A DNA stretch of 54,528 nucleotides. Origin: Flammeovirgaceae bacterium BBD 1991-12. GTDB lineage: Bacteria; Bacteroidota; Bacteroidia; Cytophagales; Cyclobacteriaceae. The translations under genes and the position numbers were made by a program. Positions 2,261-36,543 of this stretch are shown here, in pieces. Positions within the stretch are counted from its first letter, which is position 1, and each line of letters opens with the position of its first letter. The DNA is taken from contig LYSV01000078.1 of NCBI GenBank assembly GCA_001657315.1, positions 1 to 54,528 of the forward strand, read 5' to 3'. Under the pieces are notes generated by a model. It searched no databases. It saw only the letters and a program-made list of their open reading frames with translations, and was not told where the DNA came from.

Positions 2261-2290
2261 TTGATTAATTAGGAATCCTTACTATATTTG
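2261..2290 (+). promoter_or_regulatory. Bacteroidota promoter with embedded 13-bp operator, before yggS
   Basis: A TTG -33 element (2261-2263), a 19-base spacer and a perfect TAnnTTTG -7 element (TATATTTG, 2283-2290). The spacer contains the near-palindrome TTAGGAATCCTTA (2269-2281). The same element in the same register occurs before the gene at 33375, with variants at 33629 and 35885. A protein bound in the spacer would block RNA polymerase, so repression is the simplest reading. Confidence 0.7.
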
Positions 2291-2341: not shown

Positions 2342-3076
2342 ATGCACCAAAGCATATTGAATAACCTGAAGACCATTCATAAACGGATCAACAACGCCTG
2401 TAAGGTCAACGAACGCAACCCCGGAGAGGTACGGCTTCTGCTGGCCACAAAAACAGTTTCTGTGGACAAAATCAAAACGGCGCTGCAGGCTGGTGAAGGA
2501 CTGATCGGGGAGAACAAGGTACAGGAGCTGAAGCAAAAGTCTGATGCTTTACGGGATGTACCCCACGAATCGCATTTCATAGGGCATTTACAGACGAATA
2601 AAGTAAAGGAAGTGCTTAAATATGTTTCCTGTGTGCAATCACTGGACCGGTTGAGGCTGGCCGAAAAACTGGATCAGCGTTTACAGTTCGAGGGCAGGAG
2701 CCTTGACGTGCTGGTACAGGTAAATACCTCAGGAGAACAAAGCAAATTTGGCTTACATCCGAACGAGATCATGAAGTTTGTCGAACAAGTTGCCACTCTT
2801 GATACACTGAAGATCAAAGGCCTGATGACAATAGGATTATTCAGTGCTGAGCTGGAAAAGGTTAGGCAATGCTTTCGGTTGCTTGGCAGGCTCAGGCAGC
2901 GTATTGAGGCCGCAGCATTTCCCAACGTAGAAATGAAAGAACTCTCTATGGGCATGAGCGGCGACCTGGAGACAGCGATCGCTGAGGGCGCTACCATAGT
3001 ACGGGTAGGGACCGCCATTTTTGGAGAAAGGCCCTATGCCGACAGCTATTACTGGAACGAACACAAAACTGTATAA
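2342..3076 (+). CDS. yggS: YggS/PLPHP-family pyridoxal phosphate-binding protein
   Basis: This 244-residue protein belongs to the YggS/PROSC family, a single-domain alanine-racemase-like TIM barrel that holds pyridoxal 5'-phosphate and buffers cellular PLP and amino-acid pools; no catalytic reaction is established. Visible marks are the PLP lysine in LLLATKTVS (Lys37), the IGENKVQEL segment, HFIGHLQTNKV (about 78-88), QVNTSGEQSKFG, and the phosphate-binding end ELSMGMSGDLETAIAEG with VRVGTAIFG. Length is normal. The stop shares a base with the next ATG (TAATG), so it is coupled to the glutamine amidotransferase. Its promoter carries the shared operator, linking it to the 33.3-36.5 kb cluster. 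Confidence 0.95.
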   Translation: MHQSILNNLKTIHKRINNACKVNERNPGEVRLLLATKTVSVDKIKTALQAGEGLIGENKVQELKQKSDALRDVPHESHFIGHLQTNKVKEVLKYVSCVQSLDRLRLAEKLDQRLQFEGRSLDVLVQVNTSGEQSKFGLHPNEIMKFVEQVATLDTLKIKGLMTIGLFSAELEKVRQCFRLLGRLRQRIEAAAFPNVEMKELSMGMSGDLETAIAEGATIVRVGTAIFGERPYADSYYWNEHKTV

Positions 3077-3789
3077 TGAAAGTACTGAATGTTCACTTTT
3101 TCCAGCATGTCCCTTTTGAAGATCCGGGTTGCATACCTGACTGGGCTCTTCAGAACAGACATGATCTGAAGATCACAAAATGGTATGAAGATCCAATGCT
3201 GCCGGATGTTGATGCTATCGACTGGCTGATCGTAATGGGTGGCCCTATGAGCGTTCATGATGAGGAAAAATACGGCTGGCTAAGAGCGGAAAAATCGCTG
3301 ATCCGTGAGGCCATTGACGCCGGCAAGACGGTCATAGGCATTTGCTTTGGGGCTCAGTTGGTGGCACAGGCCCTGGGAGCCAATGTTTATCCCAACCCAC
3401 AGAAGGAGATCGGCTGGTTCAATGTTTCCATGACAGAAAGGGGAGCTGAAAATCCTCTTCTGGATGGTTTCGATAGTGAGTTCAGGGTTTTTCACTGGCA
3501 TGGTGACATCTTTGATCTGCCGGACGAGGCAGTGCATTTGTTGCAATCTCAAGGATGCAGGCATCAGGCATTCCTGTATGGGAATCATGTTTTGGCGTTG
3601 CAATTCCATTTTGAAGTAACGGACCGCTCCCTGCAAGCCATGGTGGAGCATGGGAAAGAGAAGCTGGTGGAGGACCGCTACGTTCAGTCGCAGGAAGTGA
3701 TTATGGAAGGCCGGTCATGGATCAGGGAAAATAATAACAGGATGTTTTCCATTCTCAGCAGGATGCAGGAGGTGGGCTTATTTATCTGA
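3076..3789 (+). CDS. class I glutamine amidotransferase-like protein
   Basis: A 237-residue stand-alone GATase1 domain like the GMP-synthase-type amidotransferases often annotated as GuaA-like or YfeJ-like. The nucleophile elbow GICFGAQ carries Cys90, and LQFHFEV carries His178 and Glu180, completing the Cys-His-Glu triad; the oxyanion segment IVMGGPMSV is also present. Such proteins release ammonia from glutamine or hydrolyse gamma-glutamyl compounds, and the acceptor here is unknown. The gene is translationally coupled to yggS (one-base overlap) and probably shares its operator-controlled promoter. The protein is cytoplasmic, with no signal peptide. Confidence 0.85.
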   Translation: MKVLNVHFFQHVPFEDPGCIPDWALQNRHDLKITKWYEDPMLPDVDAIDWLIVMGGPMSVHDEEKYGWLRAEKSLIREAIDAGKTVIGICFGAQLVAQALGANVYPNPQKEIGWFNVSMTERGAENPLLDGFDSEFRVFHWHGDIFDLPDEAVHLLQSQGCRHQAFLYGNHVLALQFHFEVTDRSLQAMVEHGKEKLVEDRYVQSQEVIMEGRSWIRENNNRMFSILSRMQEVGLFI

Positions 3790-3812: not shown

Positions 3813-3905
3813 TCAACTCACCCTCGTTCAAACTTTGTTTGAACATTTCCCTCTCTAAGCTTAGAGAGGGGATATTCCACCGAAGGTGGAATGGGGGTGA
3901 GTTGA
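3813..3905. repeat. palindromic dispersed repeat, copy 1
   Basis: A 93-bp element bounded by perfect 11-bp inverted ends, TCAACTCACCC (3813-3823) and GGGTGAGTTGA (3895-3905). Inside are three hairpins: GTTCAAACTTTGTTTGAAC (3826-3844), a perfect 22-bp palindrome at 3849-3870, and ATTCCACCGAAGGTGGAAT (3874-3892). An inverted, partly matching copy lies at 33131-33212. It resembles MITE- or REP-like elements and could end transcription of the amidotransferase operon. Confidence 0.8.
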
Positions 3906-27475: not shown

Positions 27476-27517
27476 TTTCGGATAAATTTGTCCGAAATAG
27501 TTTTTCCTCTATCTTTG
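27476..27517 (+). promoter_or_regulatory. promoter with inverted repeat before Rrf2/NsrR-like gene
   Basis: A perfect inverted repeat TTTCGGA-N8-TCCGAAA (27476-27497) overlaps the -33 TTG (27488-27490) of a promoter whose -7 element TATCTTTG (27510-27517) lies exactly 19 bases downstream. The repeat centre itself also contains TAAATTTG, another -7 match. A protein bound here would block polymerase. The adjacent Fe-S regulator is the obvious candidate. No separate promoter is evident before 28019, so the nitric-oxide operon probably reads through from here. Confidence 0.65.
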
Positions 27518-27538: not shown

Positions 27539-27973
27539 ATGTTTTCAAAAGCCTGCGAATACGGTATCAGAGCGGCGCTCTACATCGCCCAGAAGTCCCT
27601 GGAGAACAACAGAGTGAGCCTGAAGGATATTGCGCGTGAGATTGATTCTCCTGAAGCATTTACCGCCAAGATCCTGCAACAGTTGGCCAGAAACCAGGTG
27701 GTTACTTCCACCAAGGGTCCGTACGGAGGTTTTGAGCTGGACAGGCGGCGGATGGAGAGCGTCATGTTAAGCGATGTCGTTGACGCCATTGACGGCGACT
27801 CGATCTACAGGGGGTGTGGATTAGGCCTCAGAGAATGCAATGAAAAGCAACCTTGTCCCGTTCATGATAAGTTTGTAACGATCCGTGATGATCTGAAACA
27901 GATGCTGGAAACCACCAGCCTGTATGAGCTGGCCACGGGACTGGAAGTAGGACTAACATACCTGAAAAGATGA
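27539..27973 (+). CDS. Rrf2-family Fe-S regulator (NsrR-like)
   Basis: A 144-residue Rrf2 protein: winged helix with MFSKACEYGIRAALYIAQKS and LKDIAREIDSPEAFTAKILQQL, then TKGPYGGFEL (wing), then three cysteines at 93, 100 and 106 (CGLGLREC...C) in the spacing used by Rrf2 proteins to hold an Fe-S cluster. NsrR members lose repression when nitric oxide destroys the cluster. It precedes, and likely controls, genes for a heme-copper reductase, truncated haemoglobin and RIC protein, all nitric-oxide defence functions. IscR or RirA-like roles are less likely given the neighbours. Confidence 0.88.
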   Translation: MFSKACEYGIRAALYIAQKSLENNRVSLKDIAREIDSPEAFTAKILQQLARNQVVTSTKGPYGGFELDRRRMESVMLSDVVDAIDGDSIYRGCGLGLRECNEKQPCPVHDKFVTIRDDLKQMLETTSLYELATGLEVGLTYLKR

Positions 27974-28018
27974 AAAAATTTGAACTTATTTAGGATAAAA
28001 AGGTCTTAAAATCGTAAA

Positions 28019-29848
28019 ATGAAAAAACTTCTTTTAAAAACCCTGCTCCTCCTGCTATTGGTGCCGACCGTGGCAATAGCTCATGACGAGAGCCTGAGTA
28101 CATCCGGCTGGCTTACCCGCCCAGGAGTGGTAGGGACCATCATTCTTACCCTGATTGTTACAACGGTTGCTGTCCTCATCGTTGTGGCAAGACTGAACAG
28201 CTACCTGGGAGCCCTGCATAGAAAGCAGACCATAAGAGATAACATGGCTTTCCAGGAAGAGCTGATAACACTGCGCAAGGAAGAAATTGACAAGATCCTG
28301 GAACGGAGAAAGACGGCGCTGCAGTACAAACTAGAGGGAGATGAATTGAGTGGTGAGGGGCTTGTTGTGGATGAAAAAGGGCTGATCCATAAGGTGACCA
28401 GGGAAATCGCCAATCCTTTTTTTGACGAGAAAAAGCGGACGGACCTGAGCCTTGATACGCCCCATCCGCTGAAAAAAGTGATTACCTGGTACCTCGGTGC
28501 AGCAGTGTTTTGGTTGGTGTTCGGTACACTGGTAGGGCAGTACGTGGGGATGAAGTTTGTCTGGCCGGACATGGACAGCCTTTCATGGCTCTCATTCGGA
28601 CGGCTACGACCGGTACATACCAACACCGTGTTTTGGGGGTGGGCCTCCATGGCCATGATAGGGCTTGCCGGTTTTGTGATCACACGCACTTCCAACGTTG
28701 AGCTTTTCAGCTACCGGCGGGCCTGGTATGCCTGGGTGCTGATCAACCTGTCCGTGCTGTTGGGGAATATACTTTTAATGGCCGGGGTCAATAACGGTGG
28801 GGGAGAGTACAGGGAGTACATCTGGCCTGTTATGATGCTGTTTGCTCTGGGGCTGATCATTACCTTTAGCAATTTTTACAGGACTGTGGCCCGGCGCCGG
28901 ATCTCCGAGATCTATATTTCCAACTGGTTTATACTGGCGGCCTTGCTTTGGACCATTGTGCTGGCTATTATTGGCTATTTGCCCAATTTTCAGGACGGCC
29001 TTGGAGAGACTGTCGTACAGGGCTATTATATGCATCAGGCGGTGGGTATGTGGTTCATGACCTTCACCCTGGGCCTGATCTACTACTATCTGCCTTCTTC
29101 CCTGAACAAGCCTATTTACTCCTACTCACTGGGAGTGCTGGCTTTCTGGACACAAATGCTGTTTTATACGCTTATTGGCACACATCACTTTGTTTTCAGC
29201 CCCTTGCCGTGGTGGCTGCAGACTGTGGCAATTGTATTTAGTGCAGGTATGTTCATTCCGGTAATAGCCGGTACTACAAATTTTCTCATGACCATGAAGG
29301 GCAGCTGGAGCCATATTTCCAAAAGCTATGTGTTGCCGTTTTTCCTGGTAGGAGTGGTGTTTTACTTTGTCGGCTCTACTCAGGGAAGCTTTCAGGTATT
29401 TCGTTTTACCAACTACATCTGGCATTTCACGGATTTCAACGTGGCACATTCGCACATGACCATGTATGGTATCATCACCTTCATACTTTGGGCCTGCATT
29501 TACACCCTTTTACCTAAACTAACCGGTAGGGAACCCTCTCAGGTGCTGGTAGGAGCCCATTTCTGGACGGCCTTTCTGGGGTTGTTCACCTATATGATCT
29601 CCATGATGGCAGGAGGAACGCTTAAGGGCCTGAACTGGATAGATGGTTACTCCTTCATCAACTCCGTAATACTGATGCAGCCGTATTGGGTCTGGCGGGC
29701 CATTGGAGGTTCTCTGATGTTCATATCCCATCTCCTGTTTGCGATAAACTTTTATACCATGGTAAGAAAAGAGAGACCATTAACGGTTGTGCCCCCCTCT
29801 TCAAAGGATGCAACCATAAAAAGACAACGCAGTGTTCAACTTTCATAA
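28019..29848 (+). CDS. cbb3-like heme-copper oxidoreductase subunit I, probable NO reductase
   Basis: A 609-residue membrane protein of the C-type heme-copper family (CcoN/NorB relatives). Ligand histidines are visible: His200 (RPVHTNT, low-spin haem), His339 (YYMHQAVG, metal B), His389-His390 (GTHH, metal B), His477 and His479 (VAHSHM, haems). Tyr383, equivalent to the cbb3 cross-linked Tyr, is kept, but the STxEG site of CcoN reads STQG (Gln455). An extra 150-residue N-terminal part has a signal-like helix, a membrane helix and a charged coil. The setting with truncated haemoglobin, RIC and an NsrR-like regulator favours nitric oxide reduction; an oxygen-reducing cbb3 variant remains possible. 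Confidence 0.82.
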   Translation: MKKLLLKTLLLLLLVPTVAIAHDESLSTSGWLTRPGVVGTIILTLIVTTVAVLIVVARLNSYLGALHRKQTIRDNMAFQEELITLRKEEIDKILERRKTALQYKLEGDELSGEGLVVDEKGLIHKVTREIANPFFDEKKRTDLSLDTPHPLKKVITWYLGAAVFWLVFGTLVGQYVGMKFVWPDMDSLSWLSFGRLRPVHTNTVFWGWASMAMIGLAGFVITRTSNVELFSYRRAWYAWVLINLSVLLGNILLMAGVNNGGGEYREYIWPVMMLFALGLIITFSNFYRTVARRRISEIYISNWFILAALLWTIVLAIIGYLPNFQDGLGETVVQGYYMHQAVGMWFMTFTLGLIYYYLPSSLNKPIYSYSLGVLAFWTQMLFYTLIGTHHFVFSPLPWWLQTVAIVFSAGMFIPVIAGTTNFLMTMKGSWSHISKSYVLPFFLVGVVFYFVGSTQGSFQVFRFTNYIWHFTDFNVAHSHMTMYGIITFILWACIYTLLPKLTGREPSQVLVGAHFWTAFLGLFTYMISMMAGGTLKGLNWIDGYSFINSVILMQPYWVWRAIGGSLMFISHLLFAINFYTMVRKERPLTVVPPSSKDATIKRQRSVQLS

Positions 29849-30842
29849 GGATCATAGGAGCCTGATCGGTACGGCATTCACAGGGTTTACCTTGCTTAGC
29901 ATAGTGATCGCGGTACTTCCGGCTTATCAGATGCAGGGCGTGAAACCACTTCCCGGTCAGCTGGCATTTTCGGATGCTGAGCTGGCAGGGCTTAGTGTGT
30001 ATATTGCTGAAGGTTGTGTAGCCTGCCATACGCAACAGGTAAGGAGTATTGAAATGGACAAGATATGGGGAGACCGTCCGTCCATGCCATCGGATTACTA
30101 CTACAGTAAGCAACGGATGGATTTCTGGCGCCAGTCGCCTTCCATTTTGGGTAGTGAACGGACAGGGCCTGACCTGACCAATGTTGGCAACAGGCAACCC
30201 GGCAGGGAGTGGCATCTTTTACATCTCTACAACCCAAGATCAGTGGTGGGTGAGTCCATCATGCCAGCTTATCCATGGCTATTTGAAGAAAAAGCTGCCA
30301 GTGGCATAGCAGACGAAGACGTAATTGTCCAGGTGACGAAAAAATCTTTTGACAAACGGGATAAAAAGGTAGTGGCAAAACCTGAGGCCCTTCAGTTGGT
30401 GGCTTACCTGCAATCGCTCAGGCAAACGTCACTATCACCTGAGGTATCAACGGGTTTCATACCCTCGGTAAGAAAGGAATCCCACGAACAGGACAACGAC
30501 GAGGGAGCAATGCTGCCTGATGGAGAAGCACTCTATCTGAATACCTGTTCAGCATGCCATCAGTCTGACGGCAAGGGTGTGGAAGGGGCATTCCCTTCCC
30601 TGGCCGGTAGCACAGTAATCAATGACAAAGACCCGGAAATATTGATAAGGATCATTTTGCAGGGATATGATGCAAGGAGTGAATATGGGCAAATGCCGGG
30701 ATTTGCAGATCAACTGAGTGACGAAGAGGTAGCTGCTATTGCCAATCATGAAAGAACAAGCTGGGGCAATAGTGCTCCTGCTGTTTCGGAAGAGATGGTG
30801 AGGGAAATAAGAGAATGGGTGGCAAAGGAAACCACCGAATAG
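29832..30842 (+). CDS. di-haem cytochrome c, CcoO-like fused to CcoP-like domain
   Basis: A 336-residue protein from GTG 29832, overlapping the oxidoreductase by 17 bases. One N-terminal membrane anchor (IGTAFTGFTLLSIVIAVLPAY) is followed by a CcoO-type domain with GCVACHTQQVR (haem Cys62, Cys65, His66) and MPAYPWLF (probable axial Met144), then a second cytochrome c domain with CSACHQSDGKG (Cys239, Cys242, His243) and MPGFADQLSDEEVAAIA. It would pass electrons in the periplasm to the subunit I reductase. Ordinary cbb3 systems have separate CcoO and CcoP; the fusion marks a compact variant complex. Confidence 0.9.
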   Translation: MFNFHKDHRSLIGTAFTGFTLLSIVIAVLPAYQMQGVKPLPGQLAFSDAELAGLSVYIAEGCVACHTQQVRSIEMDKIWGDRPSMPSDYYYSKQRMDFWRQSPSILGSERTGPDLTNVGNRQPGREWHLLHLYNPRSVVGESIMPAYPWLFEEKAASGIADEDVIVQVTKKSFDKRDKKVVAKPEALQLVAYLQSLRQTSLSPEVSTGFIPSVRKESHEQDNDEGAMLPDGEALYLNTCSACHQSDGKGVEGAFPSLAGSTVINDKDPEILIRIILQGYDARSEYGQMPGFADQLSDEEVAAIANHERTSWGNSAPAVSEEMVREIREWVAKETTE

Positions 30843-30851
30843 ATCAAGAAA

Positions 30852-31121
30852 ATGAAGAGAATAATGACGTTAACCGGCCTGCTGATACTTATTGCTGTGC
30901 AAAATGTGTTTTCCTGCGCGGTATGTAAAAAAAATCAGCCGGCAGGACTTGAGGGAATAACCCATGGTGCCGGTCCTGAAGGAACCATAGACTACATTAT
31001 CTCATGGTCCGCTGTGATCATTGTGGGAGTAACCCTTTTTCTAAGTATAAAATACCTGGTGAAACCCCGGGAAAGCAATGCAGATCATATCAAAAACATT
31101 ATACTGAATGATAGCCTCTGA
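30852..31121 (+). CDS. small membrane protein with N-terminal Cys motif, reductase-associated
   Basis: An 89-residue protein with a signal-like helix (MTLTGLLILIAVQNVFS), a CAVCKKNQP motif at the presumed mature N-terminus, a glycine-rich stretch and one C-terminal membrane helix (WSAVIIVGVTLFLSIKYLV). It lies 9 bases after the cytochrome gene and overlaps the next by 14 bases. It is probably an assembly factor or small subunit of the reductase. The CxxC pair could bind copper or act as a redox couple, but it lacks the His of a haem motif. Family not recognised. Confidence 0.75.
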   Translation: MKRIMTLTGLLILIAVQNVFSCAVCKKNQPAGLEGITHGAGPEGTIDYIISWSAVIIVGVTLFLSIKYLVKPRESNADHIKNIILNDSL

Positions 31122-31548
31122 AAATGCAAAAGACCGACGCATCATCAAAGTATTCCTGGATGATGAGAACCATCCGTTCGGTGAGTTTACTCCACCGGTG
31201 AAGTTCGTCCTGGATACCACCAGAATACCCGATGGAAAGCACCGGTTGAAGATCGTAGCCAGGTCCTCCAAAGGAGTGGAAGGTATAAAGGTCATCCCCT
31301 TTGAGGTACGGAACGGGCCGGAGATCTCGGTGGTGGGTATGAAGGAGAACGAGGTGGTGGATACACGGGTACCCCTCACCATAAATGCCTATGGAAGTGA
31401 AACGGATGATCATTTTGTGATCAGAGGCTCTGAAACGCCCAAGGCCGTGGCAGCGTGGGTATGGGCGCTGCTGATCTCATTCATTGCCTTCGGCATGTTC
31501 TATTTGATCATGTACTGGACCCCCGACCTTTATCAATCCTTTTTTTAA
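31108..31548 (+). CDS. Ig-like single-pass membrane protein, reductase-associated
   Basis: A 146-residue protein with an extracytoplasmic-type beta-rich domain resembling an Ig-like fold (RRIIKVFLDDENHPFG, then DTTRIPDGKHRLKIVARSS, which is a typical bacterial Ig-like phrase) and a C-terminal helix (AAWVWALLISFIAFGMFYLIMYW). It has no N-terminal signal peptide, so topology is unclear. It overlaps the preceding gene by 14 bases and stops 2 bases before the haemoglobin gene. A role as accessory subunit of the NO reductase-like complex is inferred from position only. Confidence 0.75.
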   Translation: MIASENAKDRRIIKVFLDDENHPFGEFTPPVKFVLDTTRIPDGKHRLKIVARSSKGVEGIKVIPFEVRNGPEISVVGMKENEVVDTRVPLTINAYGSETDDHFVIRGSETPKAVAAWVWALLISFIAFGMFYLIMYWTPDLYQSFF

Positions 31549-31550
31549 TT

Positions 31551-31937
31551 ATGCGAACAATTAAAGACACTACCGATATCAAACATCTGGTGGATACCTT
31601 CTATGGGAAGGTGAGAAATGATGACCTGCTGGCGGATGTTTTCAATACTGTTATTCAGGATAACTGGCCGGAACATCTGGAAAAGATGTACCGTTTCTGG
31701 CAAACGATATTGCTGAAAGAACGCACCTATTACGGAAGTCCTTTTTTACCCCATGCCCGGCTGCCCGTAGAAAAAAAACATTTTGATCGTTGGCTCGAGT
31801 TGTTTTGCGAAACGGTAAATACCCATTTTAAGGGTGAGAAAGCCCGGGAGGCAAAATGGAGGGCATACAAAATGGCGGAAATGTTCCAGTTGAAGATAGA
31901 ATATTCCAGAAAGAACCCTATTCCTCCGTTGCTGTGA
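31551..31937 (+). CDS. group III truncated haemoglobin
   Basis: A 128-residue globin of the group III (P-type) 2-on-2 class: LVDTFYGKVRNDDLLADVF at helices A-B, YRFWQTILLKERTYYGSPF at CD-E, HARLPVEKKHFDRWLELF with the proximal His in KKHFDRW, and a C-terminal MFQLKIEYSRKNP-like tail. Such globins bind oxygen and nitric oxide and can oxidise NO to nitrate. Lying between reductase and RIC genes, it supports an NO-defence role. ATG 31551 is preferred although the frame runs back to 31455. It overlaps the next gene by 4 bases. Confidence 0.93.
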   Translation: MRTIKDTTDIKHLVDTFYGKVRNDDLLADVFNTVIQDNWPEHLEKMYRFWQTILLKERTYYGSPFLPHARLPVEKKHFDRWLELFCETVNTHFKGEKAREAKWRAYKMAEMFQLKIEYSRKNPIPPLL

Positions 31938-32374
31938 CTTTGACGGTAAAACATCCGGTATCCATGGTGGCCGTGTTTCTTTGGATCGGTTTTGTAGCGG
32001 CCATCAGCTTTATGGAAGCGTGGTTAAAGTTCAGGGCGCCGGGCGTCACACTACCCGTAGGGCTGGCCATTGGCCGGCTGGTGTTCCATACATTGAACAG
32101 GGTGGAATGGGTGCTTGCAACAGCGATTTTGATGGACCTCATACTCTCTGTGGGTAATACGTTTTCCCCCAGGAATCGGCTATACTTCGTAGCGCTCGGT
32201 ATACTTCTGATTCAGTCGGTGTGGTTGCTTCCCGTACTGGATGCCCGGGCGGAGTTGCATATACGGGGAGAGGCTGTATCTCCCTCCAGTAGCCATTTCT
32301 ATTATGTAGGCGTGGAAATGGTTAAAGTCAGTTGCCTGCTCATTTTTGGTATAACCCTCTTTAAAAAACAATAA
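31934..32374 (+). CDS. four-helix membrane protein in NO operon
   Basis: A 146-residue hydrophobic protein starting at GTG 31934, whose GTGA overlap with the haemoglobin stop indicates coupled translation. Four membrane helices are evident: SMVAVFLWIGFVAAISFMEAW, FHTLNRVEWVLATAILMDLI, LYFVALGILLIQSVWLLPVL and VEMVKVSCLLIFGITLF. Conserved-looking polar residues inside the membrane (Glu in SFMEAWLKF, His in FHTLNRVEW) resemble haem-binding small membrane proteins. I recognise it only as a recurrent companion of NO-response genes in this phylum, with unknown function. Confidence 0.78.
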   Translation: MTLTVKHPVSMVAVFLWIGFVAAISFMEAWLKFRAPGVTLPVGLAIGRLVFHTLNRVEWVLATAILMDLILSVGNTFSPRNRLYFVALGILLIQSVWLLPVLDARAELHIRGEAVSPSSSHFYYVGVEMVKVSCLLIFGITLFKKQ

Positions 32375-33102
32375 TGAAAAATATGATCAATAAAAGCGTA
32401 GGAGAAATTGTGGCTGATGATTACCGTCTGGCCGAAATATTCAGGTCCCATGGCATAGATTACTGTTGCAATGGTAACATACCGCTGGCACAGGCCTGTC
32501 AAAATAAGAACGTTGAACCCGAAACGGTGGTAGCCGAGATAGAGGAAATGAAAACCAGGGCCGTATCAACGGATATGGACTATCAGTCGTGGCCCATCGA
32601 TCTGCTGGCGGACTATATTGAGAAAAAACATCACCGGTATGTGGAGGAAAAGATTCCCGAGATCAGGCAACTGCTCGAAAAGATCTGTGAAGTGCACGGA
32701 GAAAACCATCCCGAATTGCTGGAAATAACCAAACTGTTCAATACCGCTGGTGGCGAACTGGCGAAGCATATGAAAAAGGAAGAGCTTGTACTGTTTCCCT
32801 TTATTCGTAAAATGATGAATGCCAAAGCTGTTGGTGAGGCACTTACTACACCATTTTTCGGAGAAGTGCAAAACCCTTTGCAAACCATGATCCATGAGCA
32901 TGACAATGAGGGAGAAAGGTTCCGCAAGATCAGCCGGCTAAGCAATGGGTACACTCCGCCGGAAGATGCCTGTGTTACCTTCCAGCTGACCTATCAGGCG
33001 CTAAAGGAGTTTGAGGAAGACCTGCATCTTCACGTTCATCTGGAAAATAACATTCTGTTTCCCAAAACCCTCAGGCTGGAAGAGGAACTGAAGCAAAGAT
33101 GA
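32374..33102 (+). CDS. ric: RIC/ScdA/YtfE di-iron protein, Fe-S cluster repair
   Basis: A 242-residue protein sharing one base with the preceding stop. The N-terminal ScdA domain contains IFRSHGIDYCCNGN (Cys-Cys), and the C-terminal hemerythrin-like bundle has the di-iron ligands in IEKKHHRYVEEK, GGELAKHMKKEELVLFP, MIHEHDNEGERF and HLHVHLENNILFP. RIC proteins restore iron-sulfur clusters damaged by nitric oxide or peroxide, either by donating iron or by removing NO. It is the last gene of the operon. Length and motif order are normal for the family. Confidence 0.95.
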   Translation: MKNMINKSVGEIVADDYRLAEIFRSHGIDYCCNGNIPLAQACQNKNVEPETVVAEIEEMKTRAVSTDMDYQSWPIDLLADYIEKKHHRYVEEKIPEIRQLLEKICEVHGENHPELLEITKLFNTAGGELAKHMKKEELVLFPFIRKMMNAKAVGEALTTPFFGEVQNPLQTMIHEHDNEGERFRKISRLSNGYTPPEDACVTFQLTYQALKEFEEDLHLHVHLENNILFPKTLRLEEELKQR

Positions 33103-33130: not shown

Positions 33131-33212
33131 TTCTACCCTTGGGTAGAACATTTCCCTCCTAAGCTTAGAGAGGGAAATGTTCAAACGCAGGTTTGAACGA
33201 GGGTGAGTTGAC
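33131..33212. repeat. palindromic dispersed repeat, copy 2 (inverted)
   Basis: Reverse-strand relative of 3813-3905. From 33146 to 33182 there is a near-perfect palindrome around CTAAGCTTAG with arms GAACATTTCCCTC and its complement, then a TTCAAACGCAGGTTTGAA hairpin, and the end GGGTGAGTTGA at 33201-33211. The left side carries a different hairpin, TTCTACCCTTGGGTAGAA (33131-33148). The element lies 28 bases after the RIC gene and could also end its transcript. Confidence 0.75.
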
Positions 33213-33302
33213 GGACCCAGTCTCCAATGCAGACATCATCCAAAATGTGTACACGAAATGACAATAGAATCCGGGATCCGTAAAGAAAATTCTCCTGATC
33301 CA

Positions 33303-33332
33303 TTGTAAAGTTAGGAATCCTTACTATATTTG
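33303..33332 (+). promoter_or_regulatory. promoter with embedded operator before the 33.4 kb cluster
   Basis: TTG (33303-33305), 19-base spacer, TATATTTG (33325-33332). The spacer contains TTAGGAATCCTTA (33311-33323) placed exactly as in the yggS promoter at 2261-2290; a 22-base identity runs through the operator and -7 element. The first gene starts 42 bases downstream. Confidence 0.75.
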
Positions 33333-33374
33333 TCTTGAAATTAAATCACAATCACAAAATCAAATTAAAAACAA

Positions 33375-33608
33375 ATGAAAAAGTCAGTTTTTTATCATGC
33401 AGGATGTCCTGTTTGCGTGAGCGCTGAGCAGGACATCATCGATCTCATCGGAGCTTCGAACGTAGAAGTGATCCATCTGGGAGAGCAAAAGGCCAAAATA
33501 GCCTCAGCGGAGGAAATAGGGGTTAAATCCGTTCCTGCACTCGTCACCCCTGGTGGAAATGTATTGCATATCAATTTTGGAGCCTCTATGGAAGATGTGA
33601 AAGCATAA
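33375..33608 (+). CDS. small thioredoxin/glutaredoxin-like protein (CPVC)
   Basis: A 77-residue thioredoxin-fold protein with the active-site motif CPVC (FYHAGCPVCVSAEQ, about residues 11-14) and the cis-proline segment KSVPALVTPGG. It is shorter than standard thioredoxin and resembles small glutaredoxin-like or NrdH-like reductases. It would reduce disulfides or carry thiol/metal cargo in the cytoplasm. Its promoter bears the shared operator, and it leads a cluster running to a MarR regulator. The partner reductase is not encoded nearby. Confidence 0.88.
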   Translation: MKKSVFYHAGCPVCVSAEQDIIDLIGASNVEVIHLGEQKAKIASAEEIGVKSVPALVTPGGNVLHINFGASMEDVKA

Positions 33609-33628
33609 AAAATTTTTAATGTTAATTG

Positions 33629-33641
33629 TTAGGAATCCTTA
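33629..33641. promoter_or_regulatory. shared operator, third copy
   Basis: TTAGGAATCCTTA identical to the two promoter copies, but here only 4 bases before ATG 33646 and without a good -7 TAnnTTTG. It may act as an internal control site or be a leftover of a duplicated promoter. Confidence 0.55.
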
Positions 33642-33645
33642 CTTT

Positions 33646-34383
33646 ATGAAAATGAAAAACCTGTTTATTCAAATGGTAGCCATCACAATGGCTACCACTT
33701 CATTCGCTCAGGGAGAGAATGAAGACCCATCATTTGCCGGATCTCCGGACCTGATGATTGAGAGTACTTCTGTCACGTACGATAGCGAACTGGAACAGCT
33801 TGTGTTTACTATTACTGTTAAAGGCGAGGCAGGATCGTCCATTCCGAAGGCCGCCGGACAGATGGATGGTGCACCGGTGCTGGGTTACGTGTTCCCCACT
33901 ACACTGAAGTCGACCGATGTTGGCTTTAATGACACCGAGGGCATCGTGGCCATGGCACTGACCTCACATCCCGACTTTGACGATACGCCTCTATGGGATG
34001 AGAATAATGACAGGGATTATGCCAATGACGGTGTGGTCTGGCATGCCCATTGGGTAGTTCTCACCGGTAATGAGACCATTGCCGGAGGGCTGGCGGTTAA
34101 ACAGTTTAATACTGACGATGAGAGTGTGGTGCTTCCTCCGACCAATCCGGGCATGCCCATGTACATGGATTCTCCCGGTTATTCCGTGGTCACGAAAGGA
34201 AACAGGATCATGGTGATCATCCCAAAGTTCCGGATACGTGGAAAGACCGACTTCAGGTTTGATGCAGTCACCGCCTATATGCAGGTGAATACCTCCAGGC
34301 CCGATTATCCCTTGCTCGGAGTTTACAGGGTATACAGTATAGCCTCTGGAGATCTGTCTCTTCCCTTCTCAGTAACTCATTAA
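33646..34383 (+). CDS. secreted protein of an unrecognised family, paralogue 1
   Basis: A protein of 245 residues with a cleavable-looking signal peptide (FIQMVAITMATTSFAQG). The mature part is beta-rich with a striking conserved core shared with the next gene: DGAPVLGYVFPTTL, then ALTSHPDFDDTPLWDEN, then NDGVVWHAHWVVL and GGLAVKQF. The many His, Asp and Trp residues in HPDFDD and VWHAHW suggest a metal or ligand site. I do not recognise the family and assign no function. Starts at 33619, 33646 and 33652 are all possible; 33652 gives the cleanest signal peptide. It sits directly after the third operator copy. Confidence 0.8.
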   Translation: MKMKNLFIQMVAITMATTSFAQGENEDPSFAGSPDLMIESTSVTYDSELEQLVFTITVKGEAGSSIPKAAGQMDGAPVLGYVFPTTLKSTDVGFNDTEGIVAMALTSHPDFDDTPLWDENNDRDYANDGVVWHAHWVVLTGNETIAGGLAVKQFNTDDESVVLPPTNPGMPMYMDSPGYSVVTKGNRIMVIIPKFRIRGKTDFRFDAVTAYMQVNTSRPDYPLLGVYRVYSIASGDLSLPFSVTH

Positions 34384-34394
34384 CGCATTATTCG

Positions 34395-35147
34395 ATGATC
34401 ATGAGACAATTCATATCGTTCCCGCTGATGCTGTTGCTGGTATCGGGGATCTTTTGTATCCATGCCTGTTCAGAAGATGACAATGAAGCAGGGCCGGAGC
34501 TTGTCTCCAATGCTGACTTCACTATCATCGAAACCGGAGCTACTATAAACAGAGAGCTGGATCAGGTAGTAATGTCGATCCGGGTAGCGGGCCGGGCTGG
34601 GAATACCTACCCCACACCCGCCGGGCAGTTGGATGGTGCCCCGGTACTTGGGTATGTGTTCCCGACTACCTTGTCACCTGCAGATGTCGGATTCGGTGAG
34701 ACAGAAGGCATACTGGCCATGGCGCTGACTTCGCATCCTGATTTTGACGATACACCTCTTTGGGATGAAAATCAGGATCAGGACTATCTGAATGATGGAC
34801 GGGTATGGCATGTACACTGGGTGTTACTGGTCGATGACAACAGAGTGGCCGGGGGACTTTCCGTAAAACAGTTTGATCCTAATGATGATTCGATCGTTAT
34901 GCCACCTACCCATCCTGACATGCCGATATATCTTGATTCCCCCGGATTTCAAGTAGTGACGAGAGGAGAGCACATCAGGGTAGTAATACCCCTGGACCGT
35001 ATCAATCACAAGGACAGTTTTCGATTCGATGCGGTTACAGTATTCATGGAGGTGAATACTTCGGATGATGCTCTGCCCATGCTGGGTGTCTATCAGGTCT
35101 ATGATATGGCTTCCGATGATCTATCGCTGCCATTTCAGACCAATTGA
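34395..35147 (+). CDS. lipoprotein of the same unrecognised family, paralogue 2
   Basis: A 250-residue paralogue of the preceding protein, 11 bases downstream. It has a lipoprotein signal peptide (LMLLLVSGIFCIHACSED; lipid attachment at the Cys of HAC), whereas its sister has an ordinary signal peptide, so one copy is tethered and the other is free. The conserved core is retained: DGAPVLGYVFPTTL, SHPDFDDTPLWDEN, NDGRVWHVHWVLL, GGLSVKQFDPND and RFDAVTVFMEVNTS. Tandem duplication is clear. Function is unknown. Confidence 0.82.
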   Translation: MIMRQFISFPLMLLLVSGIFCIHACSEDDNEAGPELVSNADFTIIETGATINRELDQVVMSIRVAGRAGNTYPTPAGQLDGAPVLGYVFPTTLSPADVGFGETEGILAMALTSHPDFDDTPLWDENQDQDYLNDGRVWHVHWVLLVDDNRVAGGLSVKQFDPNDDSIVMPPTHPDMPIYLDSPGFQVVTRGEHIRVVIPLDRINHKDSFRFDAVTVFMEVNTSDDALPMLGVYQVYDMASDDLSLPFQTN

Positions 35148-35191
35148 TGGAAGTGCCGGTAGTTTGTTAATAACGTTAATCTGTATTAAAA

Positions 35192-35431
35192 ATGGACAAA
35201 TGGTTAAACAGCCTTGTTACTCCGGACCCGCAAACGGGTTTTGAGCTGGCTATCAAACTGGCCCGGATGGGAGTAAGATATACCCAGCCGGATGAAGAAA
35301 AGCTAAAACAGGGACGAAAGCAGTATGACGACCATGCAGGCTTTCTGATTGCCGCCTCCCAGGTGGTATCCATCCACTTTCAAACGGTGGCAAGGGCCAA
35401 TAATTACTGGACAAAAAATGATAAAAAATGA
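35192..35431 (+). CDS. small hypothetical protein
   Basis: A 79-residue cytoplasmic protein, helical in pattern (DPQTGFELAIKLARMGVRY, then EEKLKQGRKQYDDHAGFLIA), not recognised. Its stop overlaps the ATG of the DUF2024 gene by 4 bases (ATGA), strong evidence for translation and co-expression. It has no cysteines and no membrane segment. Confidence 0.72.
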   Translation: MDKWLNSLVTPDPQTGFELAIKLARMGVRYTQPDEEKLKQGRKQYDDHAGFLIAASQVVSIHFQTVARANNYWTKNDKK

Positions 35432-35691
35432 AAATATCAGTTTGGGATACCTATGTAAAACGATCTGACGGCAGGATCATGCACTTTGACATACTGGTGC
35501 CTGATCATGTTACCGACAAAATGAGAATTTTCGATTATGGTCGACAGCACCTCGACAGTAAGCCTTTTGAAACGGAAGGGCTCAAAGCCACAAGATGTAA
35601 CTTTTGCCATGTAGAGGAAGCCTCTTCGACTGTGGTAGAAGATATCGGGAAAAGAGGTTACTCCGTTGTGGAACTGGCAAATTGTGACTAA
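35428..35691 (+). CDS. DUF2024 family protein
   Basis: An 87-residue protein matching the DUF2024 family of Bacteroidota: MKISVWDTYVKRSDGRIMHFD at the start and a C-terminal CNFCHVEEAS motif with GYSVVELANCD at the end. Structural genomics shows the family as a small alpha-beta fold without a known activity. The CxxCH pair resembles a metal or haem-type motif, but the protein has no signal peptide, so covalent haem attachment is unlikely; zinc or thiol chemistry is plausible. It is translationally coupled to the preceding small gene. Confidence 0.88.
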   Translation: MKISVWDTYVKRSDGRIMHFDILVPDHVTDKMRIFDYGRQHLDSKPFETEGLKATRCNFCHVEEASSTVVEDIGKRGYSVVELANCD

Positions 35692-35884
35692 CGTGCCTCA
35701 GGATATGATCCTATGGCCGGTACGATGAGAGTTTAGAGGCGGGTGAAACTGCCCGCCTTCCATAGCTCTGTAGCGGAATCGCCGGACGCTGTGAGCGGAT
35801 ATTTCTTAATCTTAAGAATTACCTGGGCCATGAAAATTCCGGAATGACATAAAAAGAAGGATAAAAAAAGCACAGAAAAATTAA

Positions 35885-35897
35885 TTAGGAATACTAA
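35885..35897. promoter_or_regulatory. shared operator variant before MarR gene
   Basis: TTAGGAATACTAA, with perfect outer arms TTAG/CTAA and the same centre as the other three sites. A partial -7 element (TAACTTTA) overlaps its right end. It stands 26 bases before ATG 35923, as expected for autoregulation by the MarR protein. Confidence 0.6.
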
Positions 35898-35922
35898 CTT
35901 TAAAGATGGGACAAATGCATAA

Positions 35923-36543
35923 ATGGTGATGGCAAACAGTGTTTTTAATACAAGCTTGCAGCAAACGGATACGGTAAGCAAGATAGTGGTGGGGTTGGAA
36001 AGGATCTCTGAGGCGATACGGGTTCTTTTGTGGGAACATGCCAAGCACCATGGGCTCAGTCCTATACAGATCCAGCTTTTGATCTTTATTCGATATCACA
36101 GTGAAGCACTTTGCAACGTCAGCCATCTCGCCCGGGAATTTAACATGACAAAACCCACGGTCAGCGATGCCATTAAAGCGCTGGAAAAGAAAGAACTCAT
36201 TACCAAAAAACCGGGACTATCCGATGCCAGGAGCTATTCTATTGCCTTATCTGAAAGTGGGCGACGACTGGTTCAGTCATTGGAGGGATTTACGGCGCCT
36301 CTTGAAAAGGCTCTTTTAGATTTTAAGTCAGACGAACAGAATGATCTGCTTAAGAGCATTACAAAACTGATCTATAAACTTCACAAGTCGGGTATTATAA
36401 GTGTTCAGCGGACTTGTTATGGCTGTAGATTTTACGAAAAAAAGGGAAGGGATCACTACTGTCATTTATTAAAAAAAGATCTCACAGACGGCGAAATCCG
36501 GCTGGATTGTCCTGAATATGAGGAAAAGGGAGATAAGACATGA
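35923..36543 (+). CDS. MarR-family regulator with C-terminal four-cysteine motif
   Basis: A 206-residue regulator. Residues about 20-155 form a MarR winged helix (LSPIQIQLLIFIRYHS, then LAREFNMTKPTVSDAIKALE, then wing KKPGLSDARSYSIAL). The C-terminal extension carries Cys165-x2-Cys168-x11-Cys180-x15-Cys196 (CYGCRF...HYCHLL...LDCPEYE), a likely zinc or iron-sulfur site absent from ordinary MarR proteins. The variant operator upstream suggests autoregulation and makes it the best candidate to bind the other three sites. The sensed signal, perhaps redox, metal or NO, is inference. Confidence 0.85.
   Translation: MVMANSVFNTSLQQTDTVSKIVVGLERISEAIRVLLWEHAKHHGLSPIQIQLLIFIRYHSEALCNVSHLAREFNMTKPTVSDAIKALEKKELITKKPGLSDARSYSIALSESGRRLVQSLEGFTAPLEKALLDFKSDEQNDLLKSITKLIYKLHKSGIISVQRTCYGCRFYEKKGRDHYCHLLKKDLTDGEIRLDCPEYEEKGDKT

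Follow-up and report, generated by a model that had tools for sequence, protein, structure and literature searches.

The stretch of DNA analysed here (hereafter the window) comprises 54,528 nucleotides (nt) of contig LYSV01000078.1 from Flammeovirgaceae bacterium BBD 1991-12, and our subject is a 13-bp palindromic motif in it that very probably forms the operator core for a cognate MarR-family regulator encoded at 35923..36543. A sequence-only reading had reported four such sites, and all four are present: three copies of TTAGGAATCCTTA, at 2269-2281, 33311-33323 and 33629-33641 (sites 1 to 3), and a variant, TTAGGAATACTAA, at 35885-35897 (site 4). Behind site 2, an operon-like run on the forward strand encodes TrxL, a 77-residue thioredoxin-like protein with a CPVC motif (33375..33608; similar to PDB 2k8s, E 1.5e-24); Sec1, predicted to be secreted and belonging to an unrecognised family (33646..34383; all-beta in the predicted model); its paralogue Sec2, 56% identical and with a lipoprotein-like signal by eye (34395..35147); the hexameric tyrosine-coordinated heme protein HTHP (35192..35431; PF11534 103.7 bits, cut-off 25); and a DUF2024 protein with CNFCH (35428..35691; PF09630 94.7 bits, cut-off 27; PDB 2hfq, E 9.2e-15). 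The regulator gene then follows behind site 4 on the same strand, its product ending in a tail of the form C-x2-C-x11-C-x15-C. Site 1 precedes an operon, also on the forward strand, for an accessory YggS-family pyridoxal phosphate (PLP)-binding protein (2342..3076; TIGR00044 195.6 bits, cut-off 106.25) and a class I glutamine amidotransferase-like protein (3076..3789; PF00117 71.4 bits, cut-off 22.8), whose gene overlaps the yggS stop codon and which resembles PRK07053 and PRK08250 but scores under both cut-offs. This is the gene set that the sequence-only reading had listed, with HTHP entered there as a small protein.

Bacteroidota housekeeping promoters have the consensus TTG at -33 and TAnnTTTG at -7. 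The yggS and TrxL operon promoters fit it, each reading TTG-N19-TATATTTG on the forward strand (2261..2290 and 33303..33332), and they share 22 identical bases from the operator through the -7 box. In both, the operator occupies the same place in the 19-base spacer, as had been claimed, site 1 ending one base 5' of the -7 box. The third and only other TTG-N19-TAnnTTTG on either strand of the window is at 27488, 51 nt 5' of an Rrf2 gene. Site 4 (35885..35902 with the box) overlaps a -7-like box of marR, TAACTTTA. Site 3 (33629..33641, forward) has no -7 box: it begins 21 nt past the TrxL stop codon and 17 nt 5' of the likely Sec1 ATG, and is therefore probably transcribed. It lies in the intergenic region between TrxL and Sec1. 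The same layout is seen in relatives. In 64 of the 70 TrxL promoters read, a fitting -7 box follows in the arrangement operator-N-TAnnTTTG, but TTG forms the -33 triplet in no more than 11, and TTT does so in 33; marR operators run into TAACTTWG in 65 of 74 site rows; and none of 38 homologous copies of site 3 has a TAnnTTTG box in the 20 nt after it. A position in the spacer or over the -7 box argues for repression.

The tight form of the motif, TTAGGAWTNCTWA, matches four times in the window against 0.07 expected, and none of 100 shuffles reached four. A loose form allowing three mismatches is not enriched (25 matches against 20.4 expected, with 23 of 100 shuffles reaching 25), and therefore only the tight form is informative; the earlier assertion that the sites are unlikely by chance stands for that form. 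Across the 8.59-Mb genome, TTAGGAWTNCTWA has seven matches and a control pattern read backward has four, with four of the seven falling on the single 54.5-kb contig that is the window. The three matches elsewhere show no promoter context: those on contigs C57 and C216 lie within open reading frames (ORFs), and that on C30 begins 81 nt 5' of an ORF with no TAnnTTTG directly behind it. We accordingly rejected a wider regulon in this genome.

To see how far the arrangement is kept, we surveyed the MarR loci of named genomes, taking the best 80 of 551 confirmed relatives (L088-L167). A site was counted if it matched TTAGGA-N3-CT[AT]A within 250 bp before the gene start or 40 bp past it; weaker sites count as misses, and gene starts were set mechanically. 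In these best 80 loci the module comprises MarR in 80, TrxL in 77, DUF2024 in 52 and Sec in 50, and the operator lies within 250 bp 5' of marR in 72 of 80, of TrxL in 70 of 77 and of Sec in 38 of 50. Conservation reaches past the 13-bp core, to approximately TAGTTAGGA-N-TCCTWACTA. The named loci hold 191 sites in 145 kb of module and 3 in 790 kb outside it, with a site at 0 of 779 other genes; of the 3 outside hits, that in L117 is probably the operator of a TrxL gene overlooked in ORF calling. The random scatter that would have spoken against a regulon is therefore not seen, here or in the window counts, and chance scatter was rejected. Of the 37 other genomes drawn at first, nine also encode a strong MarR orthologue, and all nine have a cluster site of the form TTAG-N5-CTWA, which in G011 reads TTAGTAATACTAA/TTAGTATTTCTAA. 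The gene marR itself has a good site in three of the nine (G010, G016 and G034) and a degenerate one in G013.

Operator and regulator also go together across genomes. The full promoter-operator pattern, TTAGGANTCCTWACTANNNTTG, finds seven sites in 6 of the 241 genomes of the order, and its reversed control none. MarR (E<=1e-25) is encoded in 20 of the 241, and all six promoter-operator genomes are among these 20 (hypergeometric p = 1.5e-7, a value that assumes independent genomes, which relatives are not). Ten of the other 14 MarR loci have a site, nine of the form TTAGGA-N3-CTWA and L238 only as a variant. A similar pattern gives eight sites in seven of 392 genomes of the phylum, and its control none. 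The 11 sites read from the order and phylum scans precede TrxL in nine cases, a protoglobin gene in one and yggS in one; in G087, the protoglobin gene heads the module behind the same promoter-operator. In G010, the operator plus TAAATTTG also stands at an HTHP-TrxB pair whose contig is not the one carrying marR, which speaks for action in trans. Conservation 5' of marR and TrxL and co-occurrence with MarR thus carry the idea of a shared operator and regulon beyond the window.

Several observations weigh against this interpretation. DUF2024 seldom has a site of its own (4 of 52 in the best 80 loci). In five relatives (G001, G002, G009, G011 and G014), marR lies behind another gene and lacks a separate site. 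Of the 14 further MarR loci of the order, L244, L246 and L249 have no site, L242 being cut at the contig edge. In the stretches read, HTHP and yggS of G001 and yggS of G010 are without a site, and in G032, a genome lacking this MarR, a strict site stands directly 5' of an ORF (L085). A loosened promoter pattern run over 88 flavobacterial genomes found 8 sites, fewer than the 17 of its reversed control, and therefore only the tight pattern discriminates; six of the eight precede TrxL and two lie within ORFs (L202 and L203). Hits outside the clusters were read in nine regions, along with two earlier loci, and are at least this many, as further sites in distant relatives are possible. Besides L085, five of these (L079, L081, L082, L084 and L086) lie within ORFs, L083 is ~375 nt 5' of an ORF, L087 is the C30 match and L080 the HTHP site.

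The distant yggS operon has the weaker, but partly independent, basis. The window YggS is a second copy, 41% identical to the other at G000:C27, and copies at least 57% identical are present in only 3 of 38 genomes, G000, G001 (63%; the match lies ~365 nt from the start of its contig) and G010 (57%; spread across two frames). We consider it improbable that site 1 is a chance match and yggS stands outside the regulon. The 31 kb that separate the site from the module would fit such a coincidence, as would the absence of a site at the two closest copies, but the 22 bases shared with the TrxL promoter and the lack of any control hit for the full pattern in the 241 genomes argue for a genuine operator. 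The gene company does so too: four of 97 loci (L154, L199, L200 and L201) encode a YggS relative no more than 4 kb from MarR, the 3 of 38 genomes with an accessory YggS are also the three with HTHP, and in Lelliottia, where a four-cysteine MarR faces TrxL-DUF2024-Rof, YggS (47% identical to that of the window), PtsJ and an amidotransferase (36%) are encoded within 5 kb. Inclusion of yggS, as originally proposed, is thus supported and would tie an accessory PLP-homeostasis protein to a stress regulon.

Some operator copies could instead act in RNA. The flavobacterial copy in the TrxL-Sec intergenic region base-pairs with an arm downstream of it. Of 54 such regions, taken from TrxL loci that contain GTTAGGA and in which the following gene is not marR, 26 form 10 or more of 11 pairs, against 1.1% of shuffles, which keep single-base but not dinucleotide composition. 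The stem is ~11 bp long, includes wobbles and two two-sided changes (L150 and L151), and is also formed where the palindrome is broken (L104 and L119). In flavobacteria, a DNA operator may have turned into an mRNA element. The stretch that separates the marR operator from the start of the gene holds a terminator-like hairpin: among 65 loci having a site 25-150 nt 5' of marR, 59 show it with z below -2 against shuffles that likewise keep only single-base composition, and 50 of the 65 have a T-rich tail. Transcription of the upstream operon may stop there, within the marR leader. This hairpin starts ~4 bases past the operator, and its sequence is varied and its shape kept. That the sites in general are RNA hairpins or promoter variants and not a MarR operator, as the flavobacterial pairing might suggest, is nevertheless highly improbable. 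The -7 box follows the site in 64 of 70 TrxL promoters, so that transcription from them does not include the site; in the window, neither the site 3 region nor the leader behind site 4 shows a comparably stable hairpin; and the presence of the operator tracks MarR across genomes.

The regulator itself scores 48.1 bits with PF12802 (cut-off 27) and 44.4 with PF01047 (cut-off 24.6), and a palindromic operator stands in the promoter of its own gene in the window and in 72 of the best 80 loci, missing in eight. Described earlier as having four cysteines, the protein has five; the first is residue 64, and the other four are those of the C-terminal tail. All 10 MarR proteins aligned, from Bacteroidota, an Ignavibacteriae metagenome-assembled genome, Deinococcus and Pseudomonadota, conserve the four tail cysteines without exception, and all are encoded beside TrxL or Sec. 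The alignment does not include a second Lelliottia MarR (L170), which is annotated with 111 residues and ends after two tail cysteines; the adjacent TrxL gene appears to have a disrupted reading frame. As an iron-sulfur (Fe-S) cluster, zinc site or thiol switch, the four cysteines are the likeliest sensor.

From the sites, their promoter position, their conservation and their co-occurrence with MarR, all of them observed, we infer a regulatory circuit that we consider a probable explanation of the whole: operator, repression by MarR, regulon and cysteine sensing. A MarR dimer would bind the extended operator, ~TAGTTAGGA-N-TCCTAACTA, and from the position of the latter in the promoter spacer or over the -7 box, it would most likely repress by blocking RNA polymerase. 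Its targets would be its own gene, the TrxL-Sec1-Sec2-HTHP-DUF2024 operon and, in this genome, the distant accessory yggS-amidotransferase operon. Reactive nitrogen or oxygen sensed by the tail cysteines would then most likely release the repressor.

The genes around the module bear on the signal. Directly upstream in the window, a run at 27539..33102, listed on the forward strand, encodes an Rrf2 regulator (27539-27973), a CcoN-like oxidase (252.9 bits against a ccoN cut-off of 583, its gene divergent), a FixO-cytochrome c fusion, a truncated globin (31551-31937) and RIC/ScdA (32374-33102; TIGR03652 248 bits, cut-off 204.7). No tight operator was found 5' of this run, which has the look of a gene cluster for nitric oxide (NO) or low oxygen and may include an atypical NO reductase. 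A hairpin-rich repeat, probably dispersed, has two copies in opposite orientation, at 3822-3905 and 33135-33215 (AACTCACCCTCGTTCAAAC ... CTAAGCTTAGAGAGG, by eye).

Neighbours were counted over 119 loci, with at least half of the query covered and E<=1e-8; these loci include the source loci of the query proteins, which count themselves, and loci picked by likeness to Sec, TrxL or DUF2024, and both this set and that of 97 loci exclude L202 and L203. Rof or Rof-like proteins recur in 11, HTHP, YggS and GntR-aminotransferase (MocR-type) regulators in six each (four of the last six Pfam-confirmed), Rrf2 and DapA-like proteins (the latter labelled by eye) in five each, MOSC, Hmp-like and TrxB proteins in four each, RIC, protoglobin and AhpD-like proteins in three each, and catalase and amidotransferase in two each. 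Counted as Hmp-like are also L174, whose annotation is PDR/VanB oxidoreductase, and L142, where the match is one of 23%. In Hymenobacter volaticus, a single row encodes hmpA, Rrf2, catalase, Sec, HTHP, protoglobin, DUF2024, a small protein and MarR; G182 brings together HTHP, a GntR-aminotransferase regulator, TrxL, Sec, MarR and catalase; and RIC and Rrf2 also adjoin the module in L133 and L135. At L246 (1209-6302), HTHP, a GntR-aminotransferase regulator, TrxL, Sec, MarR and catalase stand in one stretch where the operator is absent. A small protein of ~82-95 residues, similar by eye to the Rho modulator Rof, is encoded 5' of marR in L040, L042-L044, L168, L169, L197, L249 and L250; Pfam gave no hits for it in the three scanned (L040, L168 and L169).

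Taken together, these neighbours suggest nitrogen or oxygen radical chemistry that also has a PLP component. Each is rare, however, some of the loci are close relatives (L169 and L249), and the enrichment of RIC with MarR (6 of 10 against 8 of 28, p = 0.08) is suggestive only. We therefore name reactive nitrogen or oxygen species as the signal tentatively, and put the chance of it slightly below even. Of the stress types proposed from the sequence, a nitrosative or oxidative one would fit the neighbours and a metal one fits less well. A real regulon answering to something else, be it zinc, copper, heme, a reactive aldehyde or PLP imbalance, is a lesser but serious possibility. The C-x2-C...C...C tail could bind zinc, HTHP and the globins are heme proteins, and PLP-related neighbours recur (YggS and the MocR-type regulators in the counts above, PtsJ in Lelliottia). 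Set against this, Rrf2, RIC, globins and catalase recur beside the module; metal transporters and heme synthesis genes are not among the named recurrent neighbours, though no search was aimed at them; and the NCBIfam model of the zinc regulator AdcR gives 23.2 bits against a cut-off of 175.

Under the nitrogen or oxygen reading, a narrower form would make NO and reactive nitrogen of the hydroxylamine type the signal, with this MarR representing a new Fe-S or thiol class of sensor; we regard this as speculative and rather unlikely. Hydroxylamine traps PLP, which would explain why YggS, MocR-type regulators and MOSC proteins recur, and the Thaumarchaeota that enter here are ammonia oxidisers. 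In E. coli, an N-hydroxylated base is reduced by two MOSC proteins, YcbX and YiiM (PMC3831636). DUF2024 is tabulated for Thaumarchaeota with the number 29 under a heading of 30 genomes (PMC6393860).

The module is widely spread: a MarR with the four-cysteine tail is encoded beside TrxL or Sec in Bacteroidota, Deinococcota and Pseudomonadota, including an Enterobacter IncHI2A plasmid. In Enterobacter and Lelliottia, the divergent marR/trxL region has a different palindrome, AGTATCGAATCGATACT-like; the gene pair thus appears to have persisted through a change of operator sequence. On the Enterobacter hormaechei IncHI2A plasmid (L172, 5323-6582), the four-cysteine MarR is divergent from TrxL with AGTATCGAATCGATACT between them, followed by a Rho-binding antiterminator; a TrxL relative is encoded in 56 Enterobacter plasmid records.

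Apparently, the regulon is undescribed within the searchable literature, as the earlier reading had supposed: we found no description of the operator sequences or the regulon in a search whose coverage mostly excludes subscription journals. For DUF2024, the searched literature gave the one table row cited above. Peroxide electrocatalysis by HTHP has been reported (PMC4813847), and among the titles and abstract openings listed, mostly on electrochemistry and materials, none concerned its physiological role or regulation. For TrxL and DUF2024, the solved relatives 2k8s and 2hfq, both from Nitrosomonas, carry no titles beyond 'Thioredoxin' and 'Hypothetical protein'. Sec1 has no match in Pfam, NCBIfam, PDB sequences or PDB folds. 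The secreted family was modelled in two AlphaFold runs (predicted local distance difference test, pLDDT, 73.2 and 78.9), and two Foldseek searches gave nothing at E<=0.001; a weak match to dopamine beta-hydroxylase in the first was not among the 50 rows of the second. DUF2024, HTHP, the CPVC TrxL and a secreted family without a fold match, all orphan families, thus gain a candidate regulator, a candidate operator and a testable class of signal, and what is learned of binding and induction in one system would be informative for a stress module of wide distribution.

Among known systems, the SlyA/MarR repressors share the winged-helix MarR domain and a short palindrome over the promoter, and the operator half-site resembles what we take to be the SlyA site, TTAGCAAGCTAA. 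They differ in that the window operator is of odd length with a conserved outer TAG...CTA and its MarR has the four-cysteine tail, scoring 25.9 bits on the NCBIfam SlyA model against a cut-off of 120. OhrR and MgrA are peroxide-responsive MarR repressors that sense through thiols; unlike them, the window MarR has no N-terminal cysteine, and the OhrR model gives 21.5 bits against a cut-off of 200. NsrR, an Rrf2 protein, governs a nitric oxide regulon that includes RIC, Hmp and globins. It belongs to a different protein family, the Rrf2 domain PF02082 giving the window MarR 18.9 bits against 30, with a different operator, and the window encodes a separate Rrf2 protein; what the two systems have in common is a similar gene company and cysteines that are likely to sense.

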